Part shown: piece after piece, positions 585 to 63,720 of the stretch
Position numbering within the stretch: the first letter of the stretch is position 1
Layout: the number at the start of each line of letters is the position of its first letter
NCBI RefSeq assembly: GCF_964355755.1
Contig: NC_092680.1
Coordinates: forward strand, 16,035,001 to 16,099,000
Direction of reading: 5' to 3'
From: Antedon mediterranea
Taxonomy: Eukaryota; Echinodermata; Crinoidea; Comatulida; Antedonidae
Length of the DNA: 64,000 bases
Made by a program: the position numbers and the translations under genes
Notes under the pieces: model-generated
The model's database searches: none
What the model was told of the DNA's origin: nothing
The model's input: the letters and a program-made list of their open reading frames with translations, nothing else

Positions 585-1835
585 GTAAAACATTTCTCAA
601 AATAAGTATTTTTAAGAATATTAAAATAGAATTGACTTCAATTCAAGCAAAAATAGTCTTGATAGGATATAGTATGATATTGACTTCTTATCTTAAGTAA
701 AACATTTCTCAAAATAAGTATTTTTAAAAATATTGCGAATCTCAATTTAAGCAAAAATAGTCTTGATAAGATAGTATGATATTGACTTCTTATTTTAAGT
801 AAAACATTTCTCAAAATAAGTATTTTAAAGAATATTGCGAATCTTGATTCAAGTAAAAATAGTCTTGATAAGATAGTATGATATTGACTTCTTATTTTAA
901 GTAAAACATTTCTCAAAATCAGAATATTGCGAATCTGAATTCAAGCAAAAATAGTCTTGATAGGATAGTATGATATTGACTTCTTATTTTAAGTAAAACA
1001 TTTTTCAAAATAAGTATTTTTTTAAATATTGCGAATCTCAATTTAAGCAAAAATAGTCTTGATAAGATAGTATGATATTGACTTCTTATTTTAAGTAAAA
1101 CATTTCTCGAAATAAGTATTTTTAAGAATATTGCGAATCTTGATTCAAGTAAAAATAGTCTTGATAAGATAGTATGATATTGACTTCTTATTTTAAGTAA
1201 AACATTTCTCAAAATAAGTATTTTTTAAAATATTGCGAATCTCAATTTAAGCAAAAATAGTCTTGATAAGATAGTATGATATTGACTTCTTATTTTAAGT
1301 AAAACATTTCTCAAAATAAGTATTTTAAAGAATATTGCGAATCTTGATTCAAGTAAAAATAGTCTTGATAAGATAGTATGATATTGACTTCTTATTTTAA
1401 GTAAAACATTTCTCAAAATCAGAATATTGCGAATCTGAATTCAAGCAAAAATAGTCTTGATAGGATAGTATGATATTGACTTCTTATTTTAAGTAAAACA
1501 TTTTTCAAAATAAGTATTTTTTAAAATATTGCGAATCTCAATTTAAGCAAAAATAGTCTTGATAAGATAGTATGATATTGACTTCTTATTTTAAGTAAAA
1601 CATTTCTCGAAATAAGTATTTTTAAGAATATTGCGAATCTTGATTCAAGTAAAAATAGTCTTGATAAGATAGTATGATATTGACTTCTTATTTTAAGTAA
1701 AACATTTCTCAAAATAAGTATTTTTAAAAATATTGCGAATCTCAATTTAAGCAAAAATAGTCTTGATAAGATAGTATGATATTGACTTCTTATTTTAAGT
1801 AAAACATTTCTCAAAATAAGTATTTTTAAGAATAT
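566..1835. repeat. ~102-bp tandem satellite, about 12 copies
   Basis: A head-to-tail array of AT-rich monomers of about 102 bp, each carrying GCAAAAATAGTCTTGATA, then GATATTGACTTCTTATTTTA, then AAAACATTTCTCAAAATAAG and ATATTGCGAATCT. Copies alternate between a GATTCAAGTAAAA form and an ATTTAAGCAAAA form, which suggests a two-monomer higher-order unit of about 204 bp. The open frames seen on the minus strand are a by-product of the period being a multiple of three and are not genes. The first partial copy begins inside the preceding terminal exon. Confidence 0.93.
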
Positions 1836-2600
1836 TGCGAAACCTAATTTAAGAAACTTTGTCTTACCTAGAAAAATATTTATTGTTTTAAGTAATTTTT
1901 AGAATTCATCAATCTTGATTTAAGAAAAATTATTCTTGATAGGGATAAATATAATATTGATTTCTTATTTTAAGTAAAATACTTTTCAAATTATGTATTT
2001 TCAAATCTTGTTTTAAGCAAAACTATTCTTAATAAGAAGAGAATGATATTGACTTCTTATTTTAAGTAAAATATTTCTTGTAATAAGCATTTTCAAGAAT
2101 ATTGCGAATCTTGATTCAAGTAAAAATAATCTTGATAAGGGTAGTGTGAAATTGACTTCTTATTTTAAGTAAAATATTTCTCAAAACAAGTATTTTCAAG
2201 ACTATTGCAAAACCTAATTTAAGAAACTTTGTCTTACCTAGAAAAATATTGATTGTTTTAAGTAATTTTTATAATTCATCAATCTTGATTTAAGAAAAAT
2301 TATTCTTGATAGGGATAAATATAATATAGATTTCTTATTTTAAGTAAAATACTTTTCAAATTAAGTATTTTCAAATCTTGTTTTAAGCAAAACTATTCTT
2401 AATAAGAAGAGAATGATATTGACTTCTTATTTTAAGTAAAATATTTCTTGTAATAAGCATTTTCAAGAATATTGCAAAACTTAATTTAAGAAAATGTGTC
2501 TTTTCTAGAAAATTATTTCTTGTTTTAAGTAATTTTAAATCTTGACAAGAAAAAAAATACTTATTTTAAGAATTTTTTCTTAAAACAAGATTTTTTTTTC
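1836..2600. repeat. Degenerate extension of the satellite
   Basis: The same words recur with more divergence and altered spacing: TTCTTATTTTAAGTAAAAT, TCTTGATTTAAG, ATTGCAAAACCTAATTTAAG. A larger block is itself duplicated: the segment starting with AACCTAATTTAAGAAACTTT near 1840 recurs near 2210, so this part has a ~370-bp higher-order unit. It ends in a run of TTTTAAG/CTTGTTTTAAG fragments near 2590. Confidence 0.8.
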
Positions 2601-4560
2601 TTGCTTAGAATTTCAAATTTTGCTGTGTACACGAAGAAACGGTGCGACGTTATACTCAAATATTTATCTCACATCACAGCAGATTGTTTTTATTGGGTTG
2701 GCAATATCACGTGGTTTTATTATTATTATCCTAATTATTATGATAGCTGTTTCATGGACCAGGTGTCATAAAAAGAGATTTACCCACGTCACAAGCGAAA
2801 CAGAAAATTCGAAACTATCGACACGCGAGTGCCGAGTGTGCTCCATACCCCACTAGATACGAATAAAGGTGATATTGTTTCTACAAATGTAGACATATTT
2901 TATCCAGAGAGAATTTATCAACATCACGTATTGTCACCTTATTATCCGAATACCATATTCAAAGTTTAAAACATCAAGAGTGTAACGACAACCCGCGAAA
3001 TGCCGAGTATCAGGTGAACAGGTGAAACTAGATTATTTGTAGAAATATTGGATAAAGTTATGCTTATCAGCACGACGCATCGTCACCTTAATATACAAGT
3101 ATACCAGATAGGCCTATATAAATGATTTAAAAGTTAAAAATAAGTATTGACCATGATGATGTTTGTTTTTCTTGTAAATACCGACATCGTATCGGAAACA
3201 CATCGGTTGAATAATACCACTAGGTGCGCCGCACCTGGATGTGGTGTTGTGTGTTTTTATAAAAGCCGTCAAACAACAATATTTTATGAAAAGCATTAGT
3301 TAATGGCACGGCATTGTAGATTCAAATTGATGTTAAGTTTACATTAACACTTGTTCACAAAGGCTTTATGAAAACCAACAAAATAATAGAATAAGCGTCT
3401 TCCTGAAACATCATGATATAGCACCACTTAATAGCTCTTATTTTATAATTGACAACAATTAATACATCTGCTTAAATAATTCATTGCTCGATTTGGTTTG
3501 CCCAAACAGATAATATTTTACACAGACAATTCAAGTAACTCATTTTTGAATTCATAAATTAATGTAGCCCAGTTTCCGACTTTGATAATTACCGTTAGTT
3601 CGTGTATTTTTAATTTAAATGTACTGTTTGTAATAATAAATTGTTGATCATTATTAATACAATTATACTAATATACAAGTGTATGATAGGCATATTTGAT
3701 AACTAATAAGGGAATTTTACCTTACTTATATTGATATAATAACTGTTAAAGCTTTACATTATTAACACTTTTAATAGCAATTTTAGCAATTTAACTCGTT
3801 GGAACATTATTTTTAAGTCTAGTAACCGTCGTAATGTCTTGAAATAGGAACTAATTTACGCATCAGTTTTTACACGTTTGGAAACTGTTTGTAGTCTGTG
3901 CTATGACAGGAGAGGATTAATGTATATGACATTCACTTATATAATGCTCTGCAGTTTAACTGACAACGTAGATATTGAATCTTCTAAAGACCCACAGTAG
4001 CGTATTACAGCACTTAACATGGTCAGCACACTTAGAGACTACCTTTTTTCTTTATTGTGACGTAGATCTGTTTGTTGTTTGTACTACACTTTATCTTAAC
4101 GTCCCTTGAGGTGGAGCAGGCATTCGCAAAGAGTTAAAAAACACATTTAATAGGGATGAACAAGACGGCGAAGACTGTCTCTTGACAGCACCCCATCTAC
4201 CAAACTTTTACCTTACCACTGAGACAAAAAATACACTAATTTAATCAGGATTACATTGGTGTAGCATTAACAATTTTTTACTTAGTGGCGTAAATCCCTC
4301 TAGAAGAAAGAAAAAGTATAATACCGCCCTCTATCATCAAAAGCTACTGCGCGTTATTCGTGCGTAACAACTGTATTAACAAGAATGTATTTTTGTTTTT
4401 GTTTAGATTCTTGAGACTACAGACTTTTAATTTAACAATGCATTAATTAACAATTTTTTCTTATGTTGTATTCATAATAGCTTTTATTTAGTCAAATAAA
4501 ATTAATTGTGAATTGTTAATAATAATAACTATTGCATTGTATTTGTAATTCCATATTTAA
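2601..4560. other. No gene seen
   Basis: AT-rich sequence with only short open frames (longest 78 codons at 2620-2856). No protein family, tRNA or clear terminal repeats were recognised. A phrase of about 15 bases around CGTCACCTTA recurs near 2930 and 3083. Confidence 0.5.
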
Positions 4561-4566
4561 TAATAA

Positions 4567-5532
4567 TTTTTTTTTTCAATATTTTTCATTTCATTCATTT
4601 CATTTCATTTATTTATTTCACTTTACAAATATATAAATATAAAGTGGAGGAGCTTAAAAGAAAGCAAAGCTTGTGGTGAATAGGCTCCTCAAAACAAAAC
4701 AAATAAAATATAATAATATAACACAATTAGAAACTCCAAAAAAAAACAACAATTAAACTAATATCTTTTCTCTAACACATAAGTTTAACATGTTTAGAAC
4801 TAAAAAAACAAGTAAAAATAGATTATATAAATTATTTAAGAAATATCAAATATATCAATAATAAAAGAATTTACAAAGAACCTTCAACCAATAATAGTTT
4901 AAATTGACGTTTAAATAAAGCACAGTTATGAGATTTTTTAAGAGATAAAGGAAGAGAATTCCAGAGTTTAGGTCCAGTATATACAAGGGTATTCATTTTA
5001 AGTCTAGTTCGAGTAAATGGCAGGTGATACTGATCTTTTTGCCTTGTTTGGTGAGTGTGGTATTGTTTATTTTGAGTGAATTTACTGGATATTATAGGTG
5101 GTAAATGTCCAGCGGTTAATTGAAACATGATGACACCAACATTAAATCTATAGAGATCCTCAATTTTTAATATTTTATTTTTTTGAAAGAGATCTTGGGT
5201 GTGAGCACGAAAAGTTACCCCTGAGATAATTCTGACAGCTCGTTTCTGGATTAATAAAATTTTAGTAATAATTGATTTTGAAGCATTTCCCCAAGCAAGA
5301 ACACCATAATTTAAGTACGATAAAATAAGAGTAGAATATAAAATATTAAATACTTTTTGAGGAAATATTGATTTCAATTTATACATCATGCCAACATTTT
5401 TTGATAATAATTTGCAAAGGTAATTAACATGGGCTTTCCAGTGAAGTCTGTCGTCAATAAATATACCAAGAAAATTTGTGTTGGTTATTTGATTAATAGG
5501 AACATTGTTGAAAATAATAATAATATCTTTTT
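4567..5532 (-). mobile_element. 5'-truncated non-LTR retrotransposon (LINE), reverse transcriptase C-terminus
   Basis: The minus-strand frame reads NFLGIFIDDRLHWKAHV, then LILSYLNYGVLAWGN, then LLIQKRAVRII and GPKLWNSLPL. This is the thumb and C-terminal order of Jockey/CR1-type reverse transcriptases. The frame opens before the first Met (5389) and is coherent back to about 5530. The protein ends at 4871. A ~300-bp 3' UTR follows with a hairpin (GAGGAGC paired with GCTCCTC, 4646-4690) and a tail of AATGAAATG-like repeats at 4567-4625, typical of microsatellite-ended LINEs. The catalytic YxDD region is absent, so this is a dead 5'-truncated copy. Confidence 0.88.
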
Positions 5533-5559
5533 TTTCCTACGTACAATTGTATATGTTAT

Positions 5560-7065
5560 ACCTTATCTTTGTAATACAATATTTTCAGTCTTGTTCTGCC
5601 TTTGTAAGGTGTTTATATACTAGAATAACTAAAATAATATATACATATAAGAACAGTTTTGTTTAAATCTTTCGTTATTGCAATTTCATGTTTCTTTATA
5701 AAGCATTATCATCGATTTTCTATAATCTAGGCCTATAACTATAATGTGAAGAAAATTAATTAATATACTACCAGGAAAAACGTAATTAAACATCAAAACA
5801 AATGGTTGTTACTAAGTTAATCTTATGCCTGACAAACATATACCGTTCTGTCCACTATTATATGTACGTATTCTTCGCGGCGCGGTGTCTTTTAACAAAA
5901 CATTTTGAGGAAGAAGCTAATTGTCCAATCGAAAATCAGTTTAGGGGGCATGGTCGTGTCGCAGCCACAATATAAAAAGACACATTAAATAGATGAAACC
6001 ACAAATTTAAATGGACTCATCCCACCAATGGTTTAAAATATTAAAACTTTTGAAAAACCAAACGTTTTCGTTCTATTGTTCAAAATGTTACAATGCAGTT
6101 TTAATACATCAGAAGCTACATATATTATTGGTGTGGCTTTAAACTGATGACGCAACAGAGTAAACAAAATAGTCGTTTCTAGTGAATGCATTCAAATGGC
6201 ACGGTTTATAGTTTACGCAGTTTAAAAAACAACCGCACGTTACGCAGTTTAAAAACTAACCGCAATGTGACCATATTTCATTTGCTAAGTGCTTACCGTT
6301 GTAATCTAGGTTAAGCCTATGCTAATAGACATAAATCGTAAATTCCAATGTTGTTTTTACATCATTATTAAGAGCCTACTGATATGGTACGATGAACTAC
6401 TCAAGGAGCCTAGAGTACAATAGTAATTAATATGATCTTACGTTTTGTACTCTCAAGCGTTATTTCAAATATCAAAAAGATATTCCTGAGAATAGTGTAC
6501 TTCTCAAAGAAAGTTTAATCTGTCCTATTTCATTTTCGATTGAATCCGATACCAATTAATTTTCTGTCACAATCAATGCTTCTTTTCATGGTATAATCAG
6601 GCAGGTTTTTTGGGGAAAATATTACCTTTATTCCGTTGAAATAAGCACTCAATGTGAAAAAAAATATATTTCTAAATTTTGAAAAACGTTACAGTAAACT
6701 TATAATTTTTCTTTTCTAAATTAGTAATTCCTATACGGTAGGAGATAACGCTGCTCTAGCGGATGTGAAACTAACTTTATTAATTAACAATAATATTGTA
6801 TTAATATGCCTATCTATAATACAGTAGTACAGTGTTTAAATAATTTGTTTCACCTTGGTTTTACTAAATATAGTATCTATTGTATTTATAACAAATAATG
6901 ACAAACATCATAATGAAGATAGTAACAATAAATATCGATATATCGTAAATTTGTTATTCTGAACATTATTATAATTTGTAATTTGCTATATTTAAAGATA
7001 TTTTGTCCCCTGAAACAATATTTGTTCAACATTCTTTTTTCACGTTTACCAAAAATTTTATCGAA
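5560..7065. other. No gene seen
   Basis: AT-rich, no coding signal. A small tandem duplication of the phrase TTACGCAGTTTAAAAA lies at about 6215-6265. Confidence 0.5.
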
Positions 7066-29993: not shown

Positions 29994-32900
29994 TCACATC
30001 TTTTCATATGTAAGTTTATGACCACACTCGCATTCCTTGCTGTACATGTCATTCTCCTCATCTATACAAACTTCCTCTCCGTAACTATGGTGATGCTCTG
30101 ACAAATCTCTAGTCCAAAGGCTAGTTCGAACTTCCTTTCTAAGAGCTATAAAGACAATAGTTTTTTGTGGATGTAAATTTGCTGAGCTGAGGTTGGCAGA
30201 GTTACCTAACTTCTCCACCCAGCCTAAATCTTATCTTGAGGCCTTCAGCTCAGCCTTACGCTTATTTTAAGGCCTTCCACCCAGCCTAAAGTTTATCTTA
30301 AGGCCTTCAACCCAGCCTAAAGTATATCTTAAGGTCTTCCACTAAGGCTAGGCTTATCTTAAGGCCTTCCACCAAGCCTAAAGCTTATCTGAAGGCCTTC
30401 CACCAAGCCTAGGGCTTATCTTAAGGCCTTCCACCAAGCCTAAAGCTTATCATAAGGCCCTCCACCAAGCCTAAAGCTTATCTTAAGGCCTTCCACTAAA
30501 GCTTATCTTAAGGCCTTCCACCCAGCCTAAAGTTTACCTTAAGGCCTTCAACCTAGCCTGAATTTTATCTTAAGGACATCAACCTAGCCTAAAGCTTATC
30601 TTAAGACCTTCAACTAAAGCTTATCTTAAGGCCTTCCACCCAGCCTAAAGCTTACCTTAAGGCCTTCAACCTAGCCTGAATCTTATCTTAAGGCCTTCCA
30701 CCAAGCCTAAAGCTTATCTTAAGGCCTTCCACCCAGCCAAAAGCTTATCTTAATGCCTTTCAACAAGCCTAAAACTTATTTTAAGGCCTTCCACTAAGGC
30801 TAAAGCTTATCTTAAGGCCTTCCACCCAGCCTAAAGCTTACCTTAAGGCCTTCAACCTAGCCTGAATCTTATCTTAAGGCCATCAACCTAGCCTAAAGCT
30901 TATTTTAAGGCCTTTCAACCAGCCTAAAGCGTATTTTAAGGTCTTCCACTCAGCCTAAAGGGCTTATCTTAAGGCCTTCCACCAAGCCTAAAGCTTATCA
31001 TAAGGCCTTCCACCCAGCCAAAAGCTTATCTTAAGGCCTTTAAACAAGCCTAAAGCTTATCTTAAGGCCTTCCACTAAGGCTAAAGCTTATCTTAAGGCC
31101 TTCCACCTAGCCTAAAGCTTACCTTAAGGCCTTCAACCTAGCCTGAATCTTATCTTAAGGCCATCAACCTAGCCTAAAGCTTATTTTAAGGCCTTTCAAC
31201 CAGCCTAAAGCTTATCGTAAGGCCTTCAACCTAGCCTGAATCTTATCTTAAGGCCTTCCACCCAGCCTAAAGCTTATCTTAAGGCCTTCAACCAAGCTTA
31301 AGGCTTACCTTAAAGCCTTTCACCCAGCCTAAAGCTAATATTTTGACCTTCCATCTATCCTAAAGATTACCTTAAGGCCTTCCACCAAGCCAAAAGCTTA
31401 TCTTAAAGCCTTTCACCTAGCCTAAAGCTTATCTTAAGGCCATCCACCCAGCCTAAAGCTTACCTTAAGACCTTCCACCTAGCTTAAAGCTTACCTTAAG
31501 GCCATCCACCCAGCCTAAAGCTTACTTTAAAGCCTTCCACCCAGCCTAAAGCTAATTTTTTGGCATTCCACCTAGCCTAAAGCTTACCTTAAGGCCTTCC
31601 ACCTAGCCTATAGCTTAGCTAAGGCCATCCACACAGCCTAAAGCTTACCTTAAGGCCTCCCACCTAGCCCAAAGCTTATCCTAATGCTTTCCAACCTAAG
31701 AAACATCTGTTAGCTGAAAGTACTTTTTGTATATTTCATGCCTAACTTTTGGATATCCACCGCTTTTTCTTTCTAACTACATCCAAAATGAATGGCATAA
31801 AACCATTAATATTATATACATATATATATTTTTGTAGTGTAGTGAAAAAAACCTTAAAAAGAAGTCCACAAATTACCTTGTATTTTTTTGTTAAATTTCT
31901 TTCGTTTTGCCTTCTCTTGATTGTCTACTCGTTTCTGCTTTTCCTCTTCAATTGCCTCAAAACTTTCCCATATTGATAACGCCTTTTCTTCTACCTGTGT
32001 AGTACACAACAGTTGTATTACTTGATTAGACAATTCCATATTTAACAATAGAGAATGAATATCAGGTGTTAAGTCCATTATGATTAAGGCCAATTTACAT
32101 AAACAACCGGTAATAACAATATAGGATCTACGTTATTCATTATGACCATTTACACGAAAAGCTGAGCAGACGGACGGTTTGCCGCTGAGAATAGATACTG
32201 AATCTACATGGGACAAGCTAAACAGTTTTCTGCTTACCGTTACCGCTCGTCTGTGTAAATTGGCCTTTAGAATGTTGTCAACTAAAATGTGTTGTATAAG
32301 AACAGCTTATTATATATAGCACATAGTTTTTCACTTTATTTGTATACCTTATATAGGCATCAATGCTCAATTGCAGGGAATAATTTCGCCAGTGTAGCAT
32401 AGCAAAAAGCTATACAAAAAAACCTTTTTGCTACACATTTCTACAATTGTGTAGCAAAAAATACAATACAAAACTATGTTTCTTAACTAAAAAATCATTT
32501 TGATTAGCAATTTTGCTAAACAAAATTTTCAAATGAAATTTTTCCCCGAATTGTATACTTTTTATAGTTATTGTACGGTCGAGAAAATATAATGCTTTGT
32601 TAAAGATTGAAGCGTTGAATCATGGCTTCCCACTCATTATTACAATTTTGTTTTATGCCATGTTATTTAAACATAATCAGTGTATCTAATGCTATTAATA
32701 GGCCTATCTAAAAATACTATATACTATTGTAATAAGACTTTGTTTATGTTAAGCATCTTGTGAATGTTTGTCTTGTGAACAGGATTGCCACCTTAAGAAG
32801 GATAGTTAATGAATTCGCTAATGGTTATCCAATTTGTCTAAATGTATAATAACAAAAAAAATATATAAAAAAATGATTTACCTGTTTTTTTAGATATAAT

Positions 32901-36701: not shown

Positions 36702-38155
36702 TCATCTACAAATCGCAAACATCATTTGATATAACGCGCAATCCAGCGTAAGGAGCGATCTCTCTGATCGTTGGCCTGCGCGATACTCGTCCCAGAGGCG
36801 TAAGAGCGTTCTAGTTGCACGTCGTCGGTAAGCTTGTCGCTGAAGCCGGTCAACATCTTCGCGATGAACTAATTCCATTGTGATGTGAACATTCTGACTC
36901 TCTTCATGCAGCAGCCCGATTAAGAGGTAGAGTTGAAGTTTTGCTGAAATAACAAAAATAACGATATACTATAATTATCATGAGCAATTAACAACATAAT
37001 ACATAATATTATAATTGAAAAGTAATTTTCTTACCACGTCGTCCTTTTCGATTCAGTCTGTTGTGATACGGGTGTCTCGAAAACAGAGACCAGAGACCCA
37101 GGGTCTCTGTTTTCGAGAAAATCTCGAAAACAGAGACCCCCACTAAAACGTCTCAATATTACGTAATATAGGGGTCTCTGTTTTCGAGATTTTCTCGAAA
37201 ACAGAGACCCCCACTAAAACGTCTAAATAATACGTTATATAGGGGGTCTCTATTTTCGAGAAAAACTCGAAAACAGAGACCCCCTATATAACGTATTATT
37301 TAGACGTTTTAGTGGGGGTGGAGTCCCCACTAAAACGTCTCAAGAATGACGTATCAGTAATAAACGGTAACTGATATGCCGATCAAAGAACATGCCGCAA
37401 CGATAAGAAGAGATTTACGAATTCTTGAACGCGTGTAAAAAGACTGTCATTTTGGAATACAAGGTCGACGTCCTAGAAGTAAGATGTATAAATGCATGCT
37501 GTGCCTTTTAGAAGCTAAAAAGCGGGAGATTATTTAAAAAGCTGACACTAGTTTCGTAACATTTATTTACAAGCATAAAAGATAATAACGTACAATGCAA
37601 TAACAAAATGGTATGAGGTCAGACTTTGAGGCAGACTGGAGGATAAAGACAAATATATTGTGTTGGGCGAGCCTTAAAAAAGAAATGAATAAAAAAAAAT
37701 AAAAAAATTGATAAATAAACAAACATAAATTCACGGTTTTTGCGATAAAAGTTGGGTGTTAATAATTTATGACCAAGCTTGGTGGGTATTTGCAACACTC
37801 TTAATAAACAGGGATTATATTAGGGGGTCTATAATGAGACGTTTTAGTGGGGGTCTCTGTTTTCGAGTTTTTCTCGAAAACAGAGACCCCCTATATAACG
37901 TAATATTGCCATTGAGACGTTTTAGTGGGGTCTCTGTTTTCAAGAAAAACTCGAAAACAGAGACCCCCTATATTACGTAATATTGAGACGTTTTAGTGGG
38001 GGTCTCTGTTTTCGAGATTTTCTCGAAAACAGAGACCCTTGGTCTCGGGTTTCTGTTTTCGAGGTCTCTGTTTTCGAGACACCTGTTGTGATACCCCTCA
38101 AGGTCGGTGTTGGTCCTCGTTGTCAACAGACAATATGGTTTCATTCTATTCAACA
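36702..38155 (-). pseudogene. MULE transposase C-terminal exons, interrupted by an insertion
   Basis: The last exon (36943-36702, acceptor TTATTTCAG, stop TGA) reads LQLYLLIGLLHEESQNVH, then RRRATRTLLRLWDEYRAGQR. The preceding exon ends at 37035 with a GTAAG donor, and phases fit. That exon continues up to the target duplication at 37059-37069 and resumes beyond the foldback element at 38084-38140, carrying RTNTDLEGYHNR on one side and the RLNRKGRR context on the other. The RTNxxLEGxHNRLNR signature followed by LHEE...LWDEY is the C-terminal pattern of Mutator-like transposases of animals. The catalytic domain is not visible in the window, so the element is not autonomous now. Confidence 0.78.
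37059..38094. mobile_element. Foldback element with modular hairpin arms, inserted in the MULE exon
   Basis: About 1,014 bp (37070-38083), flanked by direct repeats TGTTGTGATAC at 37059-37069 and 38084-38094. Ends are GGTGTCTCGAAAACAGAGAC and its inverse. Each ~260-bp arm is an array of one hairpin module: GGGTCTCTGTTTTCGAG, a short loop, CTCGAAAACAGAGACCC, alternating with spacers such as CCACTAAAACGTCTC and ATATTACGTAATATAG. The central ~490 bp is unrelated AT-rich sequence with no clear ORF. A 9-11-bp duplication is the Mutator range, so this may be a non-autonomous MULE-mobilised foldback. Confidence 0.88.
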
Positions 38156-39660: not shown

Positions 39661-40493
39661 TACATATGGAACGCCGTTTACGCAACATTTCGATGATATG
39701 AATTTTATGACGCGATATGTGAATGAAATGCATCGATATGAATTAAATGGTGCGATATATGAATGAAATGTTTTGAATTGAATGCTTTGAATTGAATATT
39801 TTGAATGAAATGTTTTGAATGAAATGTTTTGAATGAAATGTTTTGAATGAAATGTTTTGAATGAAATGTTTTAAATGAAATGTTTTGAATGAAATGTTTT
39901 GAATGAAATGTTTGAATTGAATTGAAAAGTCAAAGTATTGGTGGCGTATGTCATTCTCGCTCGCGATTATTTTCTCAACCTCTTAGGCCTAAGCCTGGGT
40001 ACCCTCATCTCCTTTCTTCCACGCTGCCTAGCTTTACAGAGAATCCTAACAGACCTGGGTTCGGAAATATGTATTCAAATGTTTCAGGTCTGTTAGGGAG
40101 TCTCTGTAAAGGATTCATATTGATGACAGCGTTGAAAGGAGATGTGAGGGTACCCATGCTTAGGCCTATTAAGAGGTTGAAAAAAAATTGCGAGCGGGAA
40201 TGACATACGCCGCCAATAGCTTGACTTTTCAATTCAATTCAAACATTTCATTCAAAACATTTAATTCAAAACATTTCATTCAAAACATTTCATTCAAAAC
40301 ATTTTATTCAAAACATTCAATTCAAAACATTTCATTCAAAACATTTCATTCAAAACATTCAATTCAAAGCATTCAATTCAAAACATTTCATTCATATATC
40401 ACGCCATTCAATTCATATCGATGCATTTCATTCACATATCGCGTCATAAAATTCATATCATCGAAATGTTGCGTAAACGGCGTTCCATACATA
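39661..40493. mobile_element. 821-bp giant palindrome (foldback element)
   Basis: Runs from TGGAACGCCGTTTACGCAAC at 39667 to its exact inverse ending at 40487, with TACATA direct repeats on both flanks (39661-39666, 40488-40493). The two ~395-bp arms are near-complete inverted copies that meet in a loop of roughly 30 bp near 40070-40095. Each arm contains a 14-bp minisatellite (GAATGAAATGTTTT units) and a conserved ~130-bp inner block. Open frames on both strands reading KSQSIGGVCHSRS or KSQAIGGVCHSRS arise from the symmetry and I do not treat them as genes. Confidence 0.92.
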
Positions 40494-52530: not shown

Positions 52531-54635
52531 CCGTTCGGAGATTCTTCTCTGGTGATCTGCATACACTGGTGTTCGAAAACACCACCAACCAATGAAACGA
52601 GAAACCTCCAGACACCTGCTTCCAAAAGGTCAGTCGGGGTTTGTCTATTAAAAAATTGCCTTAAGACGACCTAATTTATGGCTTTCGATCTCTGTGGGAA
52701 ATTATCAATTATTGTAGAAACCGATTGTGCACTGCATAGTCCATGGGAGGTATTTTGTTATCCAATATCCTGTATCATCAAAACTATGTTATTCCAAACA
52801 CAGAGATACATTTATACCTCCATGCTCCAAATATGGATAAGAAAATATAAAAAAATACTAATATCGAAGTATAAAATCAATTTATGCATTTTAATAAGTA
52901 AACCGTCTGACACACCCATGTTAACAACTCTCAAGATGCTCTCCAGGTGGCGATTCTGAGATAACAGCGCGTACTTGTAGTCATAAAGTTCCGTTTACTT
53001 TTTTTGTTAACTTATATTTAATGTTACTTTCCATAGACTGGAGATTCCGAAATAAAATATTGATTGAATGAATGAATTAAAAACCTTTGATATTCAAAGA
53101 TGGGATCGAAGAATTTAATTTTGTGAAGTAAATTCTATACTTAATTGTAAATTGTCAACAGACACTGTGCTACAGACCGTGTACCATGTGTTAAAAGTAC
53201 AGCATTTAGGCAGACAGCAACGTGTATGACTTGCTATAGTTTTACAGATAACACCGAGGGACAGAATCGGGTGAATCAGTCGTGCAGACTCATTTTGTAT
53301 GAGTAGTTGTTTGAAGCGCGAATATCAATGAATAGGTCTAATAGGCATTAAATTTAAGAACGGTTTTGCCATCCAGACACGAAGTTCAGAGATAATTGTT
53401 TTCATGCAATTAAATTGATAATTCACTCTAGGTTTAAACGATGGATTCATATGAGTATCATCAGCATAAACATGATAGCTAAGGTTATATTTTAAAATAA
53501 TCACACATAATGTATACCCTAGGCCTACATAAATTGTAAACTATTATAGACCTATTTCAATAAGTAGTCCACTATTTATTTGTTTCGAAATGAAATTAGT
53601 ATTCCGCTTTTAAAAAGGCCAAACTTGTTTGCAAATGTCTCAATAACACCCATAGACATGTCAAACCTGTTCACACCACTTTCAAAAACTCATAAAACTA
53701 AATGGCCCATTAATTGTTATGAAACTGATGTCCCTCTTGCGAAAAAAAAGAGTTACCTCACGAGTTGTGTGCATTGTTATGATTGTTAGTGGGACAATTA
53801 CATGACAATATTTCCGTTGATTTGAGAAACGAGACTTTTGTAAGCGTTTTCAGACTAAAATAATCTTTGCTGTTCCAAAACTAATGTTAGTGTTAATAAA
53901 TAACGTAAAATACAGGGCCCCAATGAGTTCTAGCTGTTTAGGGTGAAGTAAAAGAGCAATAATAAACTATGATAGTGATAATGAAGGATTTGACCTTTAT
54001 AAATACCAGCAAGAAAGTTTCATAAACCAATAATGGTAATTTTATTAGTATAATTCACCAAATCACTGCGTGTTTCTCTGTCCGGTTTTATTTAGAGACT
54101 ATAGGGGTCTTCAAACTCAGGAAGCATCTTTGTATAAGAAAGAACGAGTTTGCGTTATGGTAGGTAATCAAGGAGGGCGTGACCCAAGGCCGTCGATGTC
54201 AAAGGTCAAGGTAAATTTTCAAAATTAGCGCTCCGATCGACCTGAAACCTGAGTAGTAATCATGAGGATATAGAGCGATTATGGATCTGATAAATGCGAG
54301 GTTTTAAACTACATTTAAAACCCGCTCTGGGTGGGTATACTTCCTAGGAATAATAACGTTGTTCTTGTAGGCTAAATAACGCTTTATGCACCTTCACATT
54401 TACCCTGGTCAATTTTATTCAAACATGTATGGAAGCATACTCTTATGTTGCAGCTAGTTAAACGAACTTGAGGGATATAAAAAATATACTAAAATGAGAC
54501 ACGAGTTATAGGAAAGTATAGATAAGGATTGGCACTGATGCAGAATTATACTGTGCAAATCACAATTCTGCATATTTATTTTACCACACTTGTGATGAAC
54601 AGAAAGCTCAGCATTTTTATTGTTATACAGTATAT
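52531..54635. other. No gene seen; LINE tail near 53030-53085
   Basis: GATTGAATGAATGAATT at 53061-53078 follows a 3' UTR-like stretch. A perfect GGTGTTCG/AAAACACC-type hairpin lies near 52570. Otherwise nothing recognised. Confidence 0.4.
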
Positions 54636-54639
54636 TATG

Positions 54640-55125
54640 AATATTTTACTTGCTTCTTTTATAAAGTAAAGGTCAGTCCTACGTACTCTTCTTAATGCGG
54701 GGTGTTTAAAATGCGAGTTAATTTAAAACACCAGTGAAAATTTCACACCTGCACATTGTTGTTTACTCGTTTGGTTTTGACTTGTATTTGGTAATAAAAA
54801 CACATACAATAGAGTGAAATTGAATGCAATGACCATAAAACAATTATATCAATTCAATAAACCTACTTCCCTATAGGTTACGGCCTTGAGAGAGATCAGA
54901 ATTAAAACTACAAAATGACATGAGTTATAATTACTCCTTAATTTTAACCTGGTCTAAATGTTAACAAAAACCGTTTTATTTATCAAAATATTTAATGTCA
55001 TTAGGAGCTTTTTAAATCAGATGAAAGACCACTTCAATTCTTTTCAGATTTTTTTAATTAATAAAATTCCGTTTTATAGAAATTGTAAATTGAGAATAAG
55101 GTACAAACGCACAAGGACAACCCAT
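54640..55125. repeat. Direct duplication, copy A (empty site)
   Basis: From ACTTGCTTCTTTTATAAAG through GGTTACGGCCTTGAGAGAG to GAATAAGGTAC. It is closely similar to 55425-55670 joined to 57259-57470. At the point where copy B carries the transposon, copy A reads GAATTAAAACTAC uninterrupted. Confidence 0.9.
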
Positions 55126-55424
55126 CTAAACACGGCCAACCTACAGTAGTGTATACTGTATCCCATGTGAAAACGTCGAACGTCGAGAAACTCAACAGTA
55201 ACTAATACACTGCCGCCACTGTCACACACAGAAACTGTGCAATTGGGACTGGACCGTTTTAGAGGTGTTTACCACCTGTTGGTCCCGATCATTCACTAAC
55301 AGTGTTAGTGAGAAGTTGAATAAATAAAAATAAAATAAATAAATAATATACGTGGTGTACCGCAAACTTATAATTATATCAACATTTTGATTTCGCCATG
55401 CAAACCTTCAAACAATATTTTACT

Positions 55425-57470
55425 TGCTTCTTTTATAAAGTAAAGGTCAGTCATACGTACTCTTCTTAATGCGGGGTGTTTAAAATGCTAAATATGATTT
55501 AATTTACACCAGTGAGAATTCCACACCTGTACATGATTGTTATTTACTCGTTTGGTTTTAATATAAAAATACAATAGAGTAAAATTAACAACTGCAATGA
55601 CCATAAAACAACTATATCAATTTAATCAACCTTCTTCCCTATAGGTTACGGCCTTGAGAGAGATCAGAATTAAAGGGGGATTCTGGGTTTAAAATTGCTT
55701 TTAAATATCGTTTATTTATTAAATAAAAAATATCATAACAATATAGACATGTCAGAATGAAGAACTAATAACGAGAAATTAAAAAAAATTAATTTCATAT
55801 ACATTTTAGGGTAAATTCATGGAAAGTCTGTTTTTCAGCAGCTTAGGGAAGCTCATTAATATTCATGAGATATTCACAAAATCACGTCATCAGTGGATTC
55901 CAAACTCGCGACGTCATGTACGTTGTGTTTGTTAACTTCAAATCTCTCTCCCCCTGTCAAACGACAACCACCCGATCATTGTGAAATACATTTTTTGTAG
56001 ATTTTCTAAGCTAGGCCTAAAGTGTAATAATAACAGTAGTAGCATATATTTATTTGACATAAATACAACATTTAGTAAAGATTACGGAGTCTTAAATTAT
56101 ATACTATTTTATACCTCGAATAGTACAGATCGTATTATCGGCTTCACGTACTAGGCTAGGCCTAGCCTAAATCATTTGTTTTCATGGGCGAGAGCCATTC
56201 TGACTAGGGATTCCATGCCACGATGGCTACGTTAAAACATTGGGGCCCATCATGGGCCTAGCTAGCCTACTAAACGATTGGCCCATAATAATAAAACTCG
56301 GTGGATTCCAAACCTATCCTATCAACCAAACTCCTAAACAATCTAAACCTAAAACATTCTACAAAATCGGCTGTAAATATTGAGACAAAAAAGGTACGAT
56401 CGCCGTCCGCACGTATGGTGTCCCGATCGTCTAAAAGTAGGCCTAAAATAGGCCTAGTTTACTCTCCAAAAAAAGCAGATACTGCATCAAGCAAGTAGAC
56501 CAGGTAGTAGGAAGGAGACCTAGCCGATTCGGCCCAGTTAAAAATTGAGCTAGCTAGTGTAGTAGACCCTATATGCGAATTGATACTACCAGGCCTTTTA
56601 CTATAGGCTGCACTACACAAATATTCCAACTCTCTCATTCGAGCTATATTATCTATACCATTCCGGTAGGTCGAGTCGACCTTCAACCAAATACTGTACA
56701 TCGTTCATGTTGTGATTATAGACGGGGTATACTCGACCCGACCAGTTTGGTATTGTATACTGTATCTGCTTATCACGTGACATGCCAGGCATGGGCAGGT
56801 AGAGCACGTGTGTATCGTCGTCTCGCTCTCCTCGCTCAGCAGGAATGCATACGTTACGCTTCATTGATTTTGAAGGCTTTCCCTAAGTCAGTGCGAAAAT
56901 CGGCAAACGTAAAGTGCAAACATATCTAATTTTTCACTGTTTTGATGAATTTTCATAGAAAATTGACTTTATAAATAGGAAGACCGACTAAAATTACATT
57001 AGATAAGTATAATTTCACAAAAGTAATTAATATGGTTAATGATAACGAGTCGTCGGAACATTGACCATTTCACGAATTTCCTATTCTGTAAACACAGTGT
57101 CATATCGCCGTAGCTGCACTTGCAATCTGGCCTCATTTCACAGCCTTCGTTCTGCTTCACTGGGCGCTTATATAAATTGAAACTTTTACCGTTCAAGAGA
57201 CAAACAAATATATTTTACATTTTTTACTATTCATTTTAAACCCGTAACCCCCCTTTAAAACTACAAAATGAAATGAGTTATAGAAAAATCCTAAATTTTT
57301 CAATTTAAATTGAAAACCGTTTTATTTATCTAAATATTTAGGCCTAATGTCATTAGGAGCTTTTTAAATCAGATGAAAGACCACGTATTTTTACCGTCAA
57401 AACTCTTTTCAGATATTTTTAATCAATCAAATTGCGTTTTATAGAAATAGTAAATTGAGAATAGGTGAGT
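55425..57470. repeat. Direct duplication, copy B (split by a transposon)
   Basis: The left part is 55425-55673 and the right part 57255-57470; together they match copy A. Further shared sequence (CGACCCAAGGCCG...GATGTCAAAGGT) occurs near 54181 and 57487, so the duplicated unit is larger than the obvious block. Confidence 0.9.
55670..57258. mobile_element. 1,581-bp TTAA-flanked piggyBac-like element
   Basis: Element 55674-57254 with TTAA on each side (55670-55673, 57255-57258). The ends AGGGGGATTCTGGGTTTA and AGGGGGGTTACGGGTTTA are inverted repeats with a few mismatches. The paralogous copy A shows a single TTAA, confirming the boundaries. Inside are CACGTCATCAGTGGATTCCA-type sequence, a 65-codon basic frame (56301-56498) and a 118-codon frame (56573-56929), neither recognisable. 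No transposase is visible, so it is non-autonomous. Confidence 0.9.
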
Positions 57471-57499
57471 ATAAATCCGATATCGAAGATTGCGCGACC

Positions 57500-59160
57500 C
57501 AAGGCCGTTCGATGTCAAAGGTAAATGTAAATTTTCAAAATTTCTCAGGTGGTTGCTTGGTGGTCGGTAAAGATTGCATTCATTGGTTATAGGCCTACCG
57601 GTACCTAGTATCTCTTGAAAGCTATTTAGTGCAACTTATTAATGTAGCCTTTTGAGGGGTTTGATGACTTTTTTTGACTTTTATTTATCCAACTATCACT
57701 TAAAATGCAATTTGTTTTTAATGTTTTAATTGTGAACAATAATTTACCCTTACTTGCTACTCTGTGTCAGAGATGCAATCCAAACCACCCTCCAGTAAAT
57801 GGTTTTGAAGATCTTTACAAAAATTAATATAAACTAAATTTTAAATAAGTATTAGACCATGACTAATATGTATTTATGACTGCTTTTAAGCACTGTATTT
57901 CTCTACATAGTATTAGTAAAATGTGAATATATATTACTGAATAAAAATGTGAATGAAGAACGCTGAATGAAAATCGCTGGAAAAAAATTGTAAAAGTAGA
58001 TTCGATAAATTAGTTTTTGATCTACTTACCAATAATTGCAACGCGAAAACCAGAGTAATGTACATATTTGATGATTATAGACTCTTAAGGAAGACTAAAA
58101 TAAAATCATACTATTTAAGCACTATCTGTAGGGAACTCGCCAGGTGTGGTTAGGGAATAGACCTAGAGGGCGTACTATTGTGAAATATATGAATTTGGTA
58201 ACGTATATTTACGGAACACAATGGTTGTCACCCTTTTTATTCCTATAGAACGTTATAGAATAGATATTTTTATAATAATATACTTGTATTACAGTAGTTA
58301 CGTGAGAACAAAATATACCTAAAATGTACGGCATTAGGAAAACTTCACCAGTGTAAACAAATAAGCTATAAATCCCAGAAATGTTGTGTATATGTCCTTC
58401 CAAATTTGAGAGAGTAGGATGCGAGTTATGAATCACAGTAACATCATTCTTCAGGATTTTTTCTTGTGTGTGAGTTCATCCCACTTTCATTTCAATTCCC
58501 TGTTATGGATATATCGTGTATATGTACATTTGTGACAACTAATTATATATTCTTTCATTTGTATGTTATACAACAATTTTTACAAAATACCGTACATGCA
58601 TATTTACATAATAAGATTCTGTCAATCATACTAGCTGGTAGGCTACCCGTCCAAAGGACGGGCACCTTCTTTTAATGATTTTAAGGTTCGGGAATCGAAA
58701 AGATAGTACAGTAATAGTACAATGCAGTATACACACATCTATAAATGAATGTATAGTGCCGAAAGGGACATTGTACACCATTTATAGAAAGAAGATACAG
58801 GTAATATGCATAATTATTTATACTAGATGGTACGCGAGAGATGCGAGCGTACCATCTAGATCGTGTCAACAGATGGTTTTCGAATACACAATAATTTCAT
58901 ATGTATTTATTGTCAAAATGTGTTATACACTACATCCACAGTATTGCAATACTATTATACCTAAAGGTTTAAGTTTATCCCCCAAGGGCCCATACATTTA
59001 CCTACTTGTGTTATACCAAATACTTATACTGGGGAATTAGATTAGAGATTAGAATGTCCCATTCATTCACCAAGCAATCTTTTTGTATAAACGTATAATT
59101 AAATCTATCAAAATATTTTTTTTTTAAAGAAACTCGGCTTGTCTTCAACATTATGATGCT
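57500..59160. other. No gene seen; two perfect hairpins
   Basis: GCCCGTCC/GGACGGGC-type hairpin at about 58645-58663, and a perfect 13-bp stem CTAGATGGTACGC / GCGTACCATCTAG at 58823-58835 and 58847-58859 with an 11-nt loop. Open frames overlapping them look like chance. Confidence 0.5.
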
Positions 59161-59376: not shown

Positions 59377-62300
59377 ATGTCAGTTAACTATGCCGAAGGA
59401 CTGTCACCATATGATAATAAAGGAAAATGTGGAATGCCAGAGGTATTATTTTAATTCTTTGAACGTGTTTTATTTCTAGGCCTAGGCTCTAAAATCAAAT
59501 CTCTTTTACCGAAGACCAAGTAAAATACCCGACCAACGTAAGCCTACTGAGTGTCGCCTCGAAATTCTAGGTCGTTTCGCCCAAAATATTCTTTGGAAAC
59601 CAGCAGTGTGGTTGCGGTTGTGACTATTTGACAACAGCAACTTTCTCGGAGGAGAATTCGGAGAATATCTAACATTTATTTGCCTCGAAATGTACCATCA
59701 AATACATCATTGTCATTAGCTGATGATTACCACACTGAAAGTGAATAATAATGACAGTACATATTAAAACATTATTATTGAGTAAATAAAAAAATGTAAA
59801 GATGTGTAACACTAACAGTAACTGGAGTGATGATATGTATGTATTTTGAAAAACATTTACATAGGCCAAGTGGCTTCCATATATTTACATGCACTATGGC
59901 CATTGCATTGGAAATAAATATAATAAAATGTATTTAGGTGGTATTTTTAAAAACATTTTAATTTATATGTGTGATGTTGTTGTAAAGCAGTACTCGCATT
60001 CAATTAAGTATAAAGTCCTAATAATACTAATAGTAATACTAAGGCCTAGTACTATCCTATTTTGTTTAATGTGTTACAGGTTTTTGACAGTATTGAAAAA
60101 TTAGATGCAAATGTAAAACAACTTGCAGAATGGATTTCTGATAGTCAGAATGTTGTTGTTCACACAGGTGCCGGTATCAGTACCGCTGCAGGCATTCCTG
60201 ACTTCAGGTATTTTCAAATAATCTTATAAGCTCTGTCTACACTATCAAACTTTATGTTATAAAACAATGTGATGTGCTCATATATGCATACACAGTACTG
60301 GTAAGAAGACATTTCTCACATGTTTTGAACGAGTGTTGACCAAGCGTTGTTCTAGTATTGCTAGCGATGTTCACGAGTGTCGCTTCCTCGAGTAATAGTC
60401 CCATTAAGGTCACAATCCACGCATAAACTGCATTATCAAGCAGCAATTTCTGGTTAGCAGTTTATCCCGATGTCATTGTCTTTCGTGTTTTATGTCATTA
60501 GCGTGAAAAACTAGGCCGTTTATTATTTTAGAAATAGCATATTACACTTTTTAAGGCCCTTTATTTTATGCACACTTTGTTCCAAGAGGGAAAACTCACT
60601 GTTCTCTGGAAAGGTGACTATAAAACAAGAAAAACAAACACAAGAAGGTCACCCTAACAAAATGCTCATGAAACAAGTGTTTTTGAGTGACACATTTGAC
60701 TGAGTTTGAACCCATGACTCATGAATCGAAGCTGGACATTCAAACCATCAAACTGCAACTCCACTCCATCCAATACACTACATCTGTCAAAATCGAAATG
60801 TTTATTAAGCAAATTAAAATACACAATTATTCTTTGCTTTGTTTGGTTTTTCAAAAGGGGTCCAAAAGGTGTTTGGACGTTAGAAAAACAAGGCAAAAAG
60901 CCTGATGTCAGCATTACATTTGACGGAGCTAGGCCTACGCTTACTCACTTAGCACTGCTGGGTCTTGAAAGAGCAGGAGTGGTCAAGTATGTTATCAGTC
61001 AAAATGTAGATGGTTTACACCTCAGATCAGGGTTTCCAAGGTTAGTAATATGCTGCAAAGTTTGGTATAATTTATTTATTATTAAGAAACAGATCCGATT
61101 AAGAAGTCGTCTACTAATAATTGCAATTTATCCAGATTGTGTTGTATATACCCATTGTTTACTATGGTAACTATCAATGCTGATGCACAATGGTTTATAA
61201 AAGAGCACCCTCTATGTTTGGATTACTTGTAATATTATAGAGACCTCCAACCTCTATGGCTTTGCTATAGTTTCCTCCCTATATTCCTGTTTTAATAAAA
61301 ATTAGAACGCTAAAAGTAAAGGAAAAGGAATAGTTTGTTGGCAATTAAATACCAAGGAGCTAAATTATGGAATTCAATCCATGTAGATATTAAAAATGCA
61401 TCTACAACTTCTAAATTTAAATTAGTATACAAGAACTACTGTATTTACTTTCAAGATATGTTTTATAATAATTTTTTTTAATTAAGATTGGATAATATGG
61501 TTTAAATAGAAATTGTAGCTTTGTTTTCTTTTATTTTTTATTATTTTATGTATATTTAATTTTCATTTTTCATATTTGTAGTTATATTTTGGGGTCAAAC
61601 TTAAAGTCTTTCTGGCTTATATGACTCTCCCCCCCCCCCCCCCCACACATGATTACTTCATTGCATTTATTATCATGTCATGTTATAATATTGTGGAAAT
61701 AAATGAAATTGAATACTGTAATTAATATATTGTTTACTGATATTTTTTTTTTTTTACAGAAGCAAGTTATCAGAACTTCATGGCAACATGTATGTAGAAG
61801 AGTGTGATAAATGTTGCAAGTAAGTACTGTTAATGTCAACTATTTTAATTGATTTCTTGTTTTAACATTACCTATAAAAATTCTTGAATTTGAACACATC
61901 TCAAACAAAACGGCAGTATTGACGGCCTGGTGTGTGCTAGTATTTTCCAAGATACTGACTATTGTTCCCAGAGAGATATGGCACACCAACCTACACCAAG
62001 TACTTATTAGTTGAGTCATGTATAAGATAGAATTCAAAATTAATCACAAGTGCATTTAGTGTTAAGTAACCTTCTGTTGGTTGACAGTAAGTCATTGTTA
62101 AATCTGATAAAATCAGGACAGAATGTGCTGCTGCCCTTTATAAGAAAAATATGAGAGAATAATATTATGAAGTTTTTAAAATGTTAATTTAAATTAAAAT
62201 TATATTATTGCAGTTTTATTTCAAATGATGATGATGATTTCATTACTTTTTTTTTCAGGCAGTATGTTAGAAAATCAGCAGTACCAACATTGGGACTGAA

Positions 62301-63720
62301 GCTCACAGGGAACAATTGTACACAAACCAAGTCTAGAGGGCGCTGCAGGTTTGTAATATTTTTTCCAGGGGATATTCAATATTATGAACTAAATTTGTAT
62401 GCACACTTATTATAATAATAATAATAATATATACGAATTTGTAAAGCGCCAATTCCTGCAACAAAAATCAAAGGGGCTGTGGACTTAGATGTTACATCTT
62501 TTCAACAACTTTCTTCTTCCCTAAGGGTCATATTGTGTCATCGGCAGCCAACTACGGCGCCATTACGTCTGTCCGCGACAGTGTGTGTGTATGAATTAGT
62601 ACACCGGGGTAACCCCCTACTCGTCTCGAAAGATGTACTAGGTTCTTTAAAATGCACATGAGCCAGATGTACACTGGACCTACGGTTTATAGTCCTTATC
62701 CGAGAAGACTTGTTCTACAACCAGAACCATGGAGTGAGTGAGCCTCGAACCCTTGCCGATGTTATGGCTATGGATTACGGTTCCACTGTCTTAACCGCTC
62801 GGCCACGCTCACTCACTTATTCTTAATGACCTGTTTAGTAAGATAAGTGTTCTCTCTGTATCACTTGCAGTTTACAAATTAGTCATATTTCTATAATAAA
62901 CATACATTACAGTGTAAAGTCATTGTGCTTGGTTCACACTAGATACACAATGCAATGCATGGATTAACCCCTTGCATCCTTCTGTTACATCCTAGTGGGA
63001 ACCAAGCTTTATTGATTAACCTAGTTATTAAAACCATAAACAAGTTGCATATAACATTTTCTTCAACTACTCTGTATTTTAGAGGAAAACTTCGAGACAC
63101 AGTCCTAGACTGGGAAGATGCTTTACCGGCCAGGGATCTTGAGCTTTCTGAACAACATTCCAGGTATGTAAAGGTTACATGTGGGTCGACTGTTGAACTT
63201 CATATTATATTCATTCGAATATACGCCCCTCTTTTGAATAAACACCTCCCTTAAATAAACGCTCTCCCCCACCCCATAGAGCATCATTTTTAGTAAACAC
63301 CCACCTCGAAAAAATGCCCTGGGGCTTTTATTTATTTTCTTTGAATAAACACCCCGACACATGCATTATATACACAAAATTGTATTAAAACATATTTCTA
63401 TTTGTAGTAGAATTCATTGATTGATATGACCTACAATTTACCAAGCATTTTGATACATTTTGTACTGTATTTTTTCACTTCTTAATATTAAATGTGTTGT
63501 AATTTTTAATCACCAACAAAAATATACGCCTCCCCCCAATTTAACACCTCCCTCAATGTTAATCAGTTGTTGCACAGTATTTTCTTTTTAATTTAGAGAC
63601 GCTGATTTGTCATTGTGTTTGGGAACATCGCTTCAGATTGTCCCAAGTGGAAATTTACCCCTCCTAACAAAGAAGAACGGTGGTAAATTAGTTATTGTAA
63701 ATCTGCAAGCCACTAAACAT
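59377..63720 (+). CDS. SIRT6: SIRT6, NAD+-dependent protein deacylase (3' end beyond window)
   Basis: Seven coding exons: 59377-59442, 60080-60207, 60858-61040, 61760-61819, 62259-62348, 63083-63163, 63597-63720. All junctions are GT-AG and in phase, giving 244 residues, and the last exon ends in a GTAAGT donor, so more exons lie to the right. The N-terminus [19 protein letters not shown] is near-identical to vertebrate SIRT6. Landmarks: [17 protein letters not shown] loop at 51-64, [24 protein letters not shown], catalytic His133 in LHGNM, zinc cysteines C141/C144 and C166/C175, LDWEDALP, and [18 protein letters not shown]6 acts on chromatin (H3K9/H3K56 deacetylation, defatty-acylation, mono-ADP-ribosylation) in DNA repair and metabolism. 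The missing part would hold the end of the Rossmann fold and the basic C-terminal tail. Confidence 0.97.
60540..60780 (-). mobile_element. tRNA-derived SINE in SIRT6 intron 2
   Basis: On the minus strand, B box GGGTTCAAACTC (60713-60702) with an A-box-like TGCAGTTTGATGG about 35-45 bp upstream. The body runs left to about 60540. It is a different family from the 62.6-kb SINE. Confidence 0.6.
61320..61715 (+). mobile_element. LINE 3' fragment in SIRT6 intron 3
   Basis: The frame reads [20 protein letters not shown], then [10 protein letters not shown], the end of a LINE reverse transcriptase. A T-rich 3' UTR follows with a C16 run (61629-61644) and a GGAAATAAATGAAATTGAA tail. Confidence 0.7.
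62395..62822 (-). mobile_element. tRNA-headed SINE in SIRT6 intron 5
   Basis: On the minus strand, A box TGGCCGAGCGG (62805-62795) and B box GGGTTCGAGGC (62752-62742). A ~300-bp body includes GTGCATTTTAAAGAACCTAG, and the tail GGCGCTTTACAAATTCG ends in TTATTATTA at about 62410-62430. The body phrase is shared with the 5S-headed SINE at 29.7 kb and the tail with the LINE at 28.1-28.5 kb. Confidence 0.88.
63215..63560. repeat. AATAAACACCCC-type repeat remnants in SIRT6 intron 6
   Basis: GAATATACGCCCCTC, GAATAAACACCTCCC, AATAAACGCTCTCCC, GAATAAACACCCCG and AATATACGCCTCCCC recur, separated by unique sequence. Probably a fragmented MITE family, with a relative near 7.67 kb. Confidence 0.55.

Follow-up and report, generated by a model that had tools for sequence, protein, structure and literature searches.

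Duplicated site upstream of a SIRT6-like gene

The window, i.e., the complete stretch of 64,000 nucleotides analyzed here, contains a SIRT6-like sirtuin gene with several exons on the forward strand (59377-63720), which was recognized with human SIRT6 as query. About 2.1 kb separate its start codon from the upstream insertion described below. Further repeats in the window comprise a minisatellite of 31-bp units in about 48 copies (30214-31696), an array (37076-38063) whose palindromic GGGTCTCTGTTTTCGAG...CTCGAAAACAGAGACCC units are arranged in inverted fashion and a large inverted repeat (39665-40489) with 309-nt arms that are 95% complementary, lie 207 nt apart and consist partly of 14-bp tandem repeats. 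The latter looks like another palindromic transposon.

Upstream of the gene, reading of the region as well as repeat search revealed a host duplication of about 460 bp (Table 1). Copy 1 is whole, while the second related stretch (55414-57463) is split by an element of 1,581 bp that is bordered by TTAA duplications, exactly as described in the initial annotation.

Table 1. Features of the duplicated site and of the inserted element. Coordinates refer to the window; aa, amino acids.
Feature	Position	Strand	Evidence or remark
Copy 1 of the host duplication (empty site, as before insertion)	54640..55098	+	48/436 substitutions vs. copy 2; copy 2 is its only counterpart in the genome
Unoccupied TTAA target, copy 1	54902..54905	+	Sequence GAATTAAAACTAC at 54899-54911
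Host duplication copy 2, left arm	55414..55673	+	84% gapped identity to 54640-54906
Left TTAA target-site duplication	55670..55673	+	Sequence, repeat search, alignment to copy 1
Putative non-autonomous Kolobok/T2-type DNA transposon (MITE), exactly 1,581 bp	55674..57254	+	No ORF >123 aa
Left terminal inverted repeat AGGGGGATTCTGGGTTTAAAAT	55674..55695	+	Repeat search, end-pattern matches
Right terminal inverted repeat AGGGGGGTTACGGGTTTAAAAT	57233..57254	-	Family form AGGGGGGTTCCGGG; one change in the window copy
Right TTAA target-site duplication	57255..57258	+	Sequence, repeat search, alignment to copy 1
Host duplication copy 2, right arm	57255..57463	+	78% gapped identity to 54902-55098

With the element masked, copies 1 and 2 align through the junction without a single base gained or lost around the TTAA, and the junction ...GATCAGAATTAAAACTACAAAATGA... 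is common to copy 1 and the flanks of copy 2. The insertion thus brought in the element and one additional TTAA without loss of sequence, and the earlier statement that its boundaries are proven within the window is borne out by the empty paralogue.

The two related stretches might also be seen as one whole and one interrupted copy of a dispersed repeat instead of products of a local duplication. The neighborhood is indeed more complex than expected for one clean tandem copy, as a 51-bp stretch located upstream of copy 1 (54177-54226) recurs with 92% identity downstream of copy 2 (57492-57542), which suggests an older, more complex rearrangement or a lost third copy. When copy 1 was used as query against the whole genome of 354 Mb, however, only three matches were obtained, all of them at this locus, namely the query itself plus the left and right arms of copy 2. 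A dispersed repeat is therefore highly improbable, and we conclude on a local duplication, the copies of which are offset by about 0.77 kb and out of register.

Relative age of duplication and insertion

The arms of the duplicate differ at 11% of the aligned sites (48/436, K2P 0.119), and the duplication was dated by half of this distance, i.e., about 6% per branch. The element, on the other hand, differs at only 14 of 1577 sites (0.9%) from the majority sequence of its subfamily, which was built without the window copy. The resulting ratio of insertion age to duplication age amounts to 0.15 (bootstrap 0.07-0.26), a value that assumes similar neutral rates, with any constraint on the duplicate only pushing the duplication to an older date. 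Divergence between the copies had been proposed at the outset as a means of dating both events; the insertion is younger than the duplication, as had been claimed, and about 15% as old.

The reverse order would imply that the element predates the duplication and that copy 1 lost it afterwards by precise excision, such that the empty copy is secondary. For piggyBac elements, excision that restores the TTAA is established, and a comparable process would leave an identical empty site. An element already present before the duplication should, however, not be younger than the latter (about 6% per branch), which is far above the divergence from the subfamily majority that was found. The values of 0.9% for the element versus 11% for the duplicate rule out the precise loss of an older copy from copy 1, and we give this scenario virtually no credence. 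Insertion after duplication, in turn, constitutes an exact and dated event for which the empty copy provides an internal control. It is a clear instance of an ordinary process and leaves the general picture of DNA transposons unchanged.

Termini, target site and family of the element

The element begins with AGGGGGATTCTGGGTTTAAAAT and finishes with ATTTTAAACCCGTAACCCCCCT. Its inverted ends are imperfect and comprise 22 bp (88% match across 26 nt, including the TTAA), with AGGGGG..CCCCCT (RR..YY) as termini. In agreement with the initial annotation, in which no transposase was visible, the longest stop-to-stop frames span only 123 amino acids in the window copy and 102 amino acids in the subfamily majority sequence, and the element is therefore very likely non-coding. 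It exhibits the features of a MITE, i.e., lack of a transposase, high copy number, uniform length and inverted ends.

With regard to the occurrence of related elements, the end pattern TTAAAGGGGGRTTCNGGGTTT yielded 544 exact matches in the genome versus none for a control with the reversed pattern, and chance is thereby excluded as their origin. Using the element as query, at least 42 places were found at full score (470 candidates), and the 28-bp A-end is present in 286 exact matches, which puts the size of the family at roughly 300 or above. Among 26 extracted full-length copies (1,542-1,618 bp), 25 have TTAA at either border and the remaining one has ATAA/TTAA, end positions are identical throughout the alignment, and AG..CT is present in all cases, so that a test for copies with other ends or lacking TTAA turned out in favor of the boundaries originally proposed. 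AGGGG is found next to the TTAA at both ends of the element, and the bases adjoining the TTAA vary among insertions elsewhere in the genome, which identifies TTAA and not TTAAA as target and assigns the adjacent A/T to the element. The flanks differ among the 26 copies apart from four on C9 with one common flank. Two subfamilies are 4.7% apart, and divergence from the respective majority sequence is just 0.25-1.1%, pointing to recent amplification. As judged from sequence, the elements form a candidate new family of a known transposon type.

Kolobok elements have TTAA in common with piggyBac, but carry 5'-RR and YY-3' termini (PMC9587614), while the combination of TTAA with AGGRR marks T2-MITEs and the autonomous Kolobok elements listed for Xenopus all possess AG ends (PMC6004289). 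In the family studied here, we found the 4-bp TTAA duplication, 5'-RR...YY-3' termini and an AGGRR terminal motif adjoining the TTAA. Since these ends and the target site match the published marks, the element in the window is probably a non-autonomous transposon of the Kolobok/T2 type, an assignment that is based on termini and target site. With the T2-MITEs of Xenopus (PMC6004289), which have a different host, it has in common the TTAA target, the AGGRR motif at the termini, non-autonomy, high copy number and young subfamilies.

In the initial annotation, the ends had been described as piggyBac-type. The TTAA target-site duplication is in agreement with such an affiliation, and 37 matches to piggyBac (PF13843), several of them intact, are present in the genome. 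However, this duplication is common to Kolobok and hence does not discriminate between the two superfamilies, whereas RR..YY termini are the opposite of piggyBac according to the criterion given in PMC9587614. Furthermore, the ends of the MITE differ from those of a young, 99.5% identical piggyBac pair in the same genome, which features CACATTGACTGCC/CACGTTCACTGCC ends with TTAA followed by CACATTGACTGCCAAG and CACGTTCACTGCCACG. A non-autonomous element of the piggyBac type is thus very unlikely, and the superfamily had to be corrected to Kolobok/T2, illustrating that TTAA by itself does not imply piggyBac.

Kolobok transposases and probable mobilization in trans

One THAP locus (L068, G000:C3:9457200-9464200, at 730-6036) resides inside an element of 5,299 bp that is bounded by TTAA/AGGAATCCAGTATTAT and AGGAATGCAGTATTAT/TTAA and starts with TTAA/AGGAATCCAG. 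In addition to a THAP domain, the element encodes a transposase exon, where we read a DIFHV (DxxH) motif as well as a TTDRH stretch, and it is apparently a complete autonomous THAP-Kolobok. The exon occurs in five essentially identical copies in the genome, indicating that L068 has probably been active recently. About 100 matches related to this exon are scattered throughout the genome and include six copies of an intact frame of 616 aa; together with the five essentially identical exons, the latter document the presence of intact Kolobok-type genes. Among the five THAP loci read, L068 is the only full Kolobok, another one carries the gene for a THAP/DDE_Tnp_4 protein, and the others are incomplete. 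Readable ends of Kolobok-type elements start with AGGAATCC or AGGACAACTG. THAP-Kolobok elements such as XKol (PMC6004289) and L068 resemble the MITE in TTAA duplication and AG..CT ends, but encode a THAP-DDE transposase, and the terminal repeats of L068 coincide with those of the MITE in the first AGG only.

Of the two genome searches originally suggested, the one for ends was successful as described above, while no transposase-bearing element was found with AGGGGGRTTCYGGG ends or with the 22-bp ends of the MITE. For 266 exact MITE ends with known coordinates, which amount to about half of the exact ends in an assembly that contains gaps, the 40 kb on either side include none of the 94 Kolobok, PF20700 or THAP matches. 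The MITE accounts for nearly all ends of this kind, and patterns excluding its own subterminal bases gave just four and one matches, arguing against a second population of elements with its terminal repeats. MITE ends are present at none of the five THAP loci read, and PF20700 ('Mutator') loci, which are Kolobok-like by their CxxH motif, do not have TTAAAGGGG ends within the stretches read.

Most likely, the MITE is mobilized in trans, the Kolobok transposase responsible being rare, unlisted, lost or able to accept different ends. That it was moved by a transposase from elements with terminal repeats differing beyond the first few bases, i.e., by cross-mobilization with very loose end recognition, is conceivable though rather unlikely; in this case, a large MITE burst would have occurred without a matching autonomous element in the genome.

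Taken as a whole, we consider a local duplication with later insertion of a Kolobok/T2-type MITE moved in trans highly probable. An intergenic stretch of about 460 bp, situated about 2 kb upstream of the SIRT6-like gene, was duplicated locally. Much later the non-autonomous transposon, a member of a family of about 300 copies in young subfamilies, inserted into the downstream copy, presumably by the cut-and-paste mode typical of its class, and the TTAA at this site was duplicated in the process. As the element lacks its own transposase, a DDE transposase of the Kolobok type presumably moved it in trans, and intact, near-identical THAP-Kolobok elements are present in the same genome. A young high-copy MITE family thus coexists with several intact, near-identical THAP-Kolobok transposases in one genome, which lends itself to studies on the pairing of individual Kolobok transposases with the MITEs they mobilize.

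A number of further arrangements of MITE ends were encountered. Pairs of ends 3.2-4.4 kb apart (L014-L017, L039) were considered as autonomous elements and rejected, as they represent MITEs split by extra DNA without a recognized transposase; in one of them (L015, G000:C1:8628420-8632650) the insert carries a 625-aa frame that is retrotransposon-like by eye. The ends at G000:C4:2894040-2898760 (L064) were likewise dismissed, as they belong to two complete, full-length MITEs arranged head to head, about 1.2 kb apart. The four copies with the same flanks on C9 (L053-L056, at 17.229, 17.246, 17.746 and 17.762 Mb of G000:C9) apparently go back to one insertion that was later multiplied by segmental duplication, an order opposite to that in the window. 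At G000:C3:28166881-28166942, only some 60 bp separate the two MITE ends, apparently as a result of extreme internal deletion, and at G000:C7:27950497-27950536 the terminal 18 bp plus TTAA occur twice in tandem at one end.
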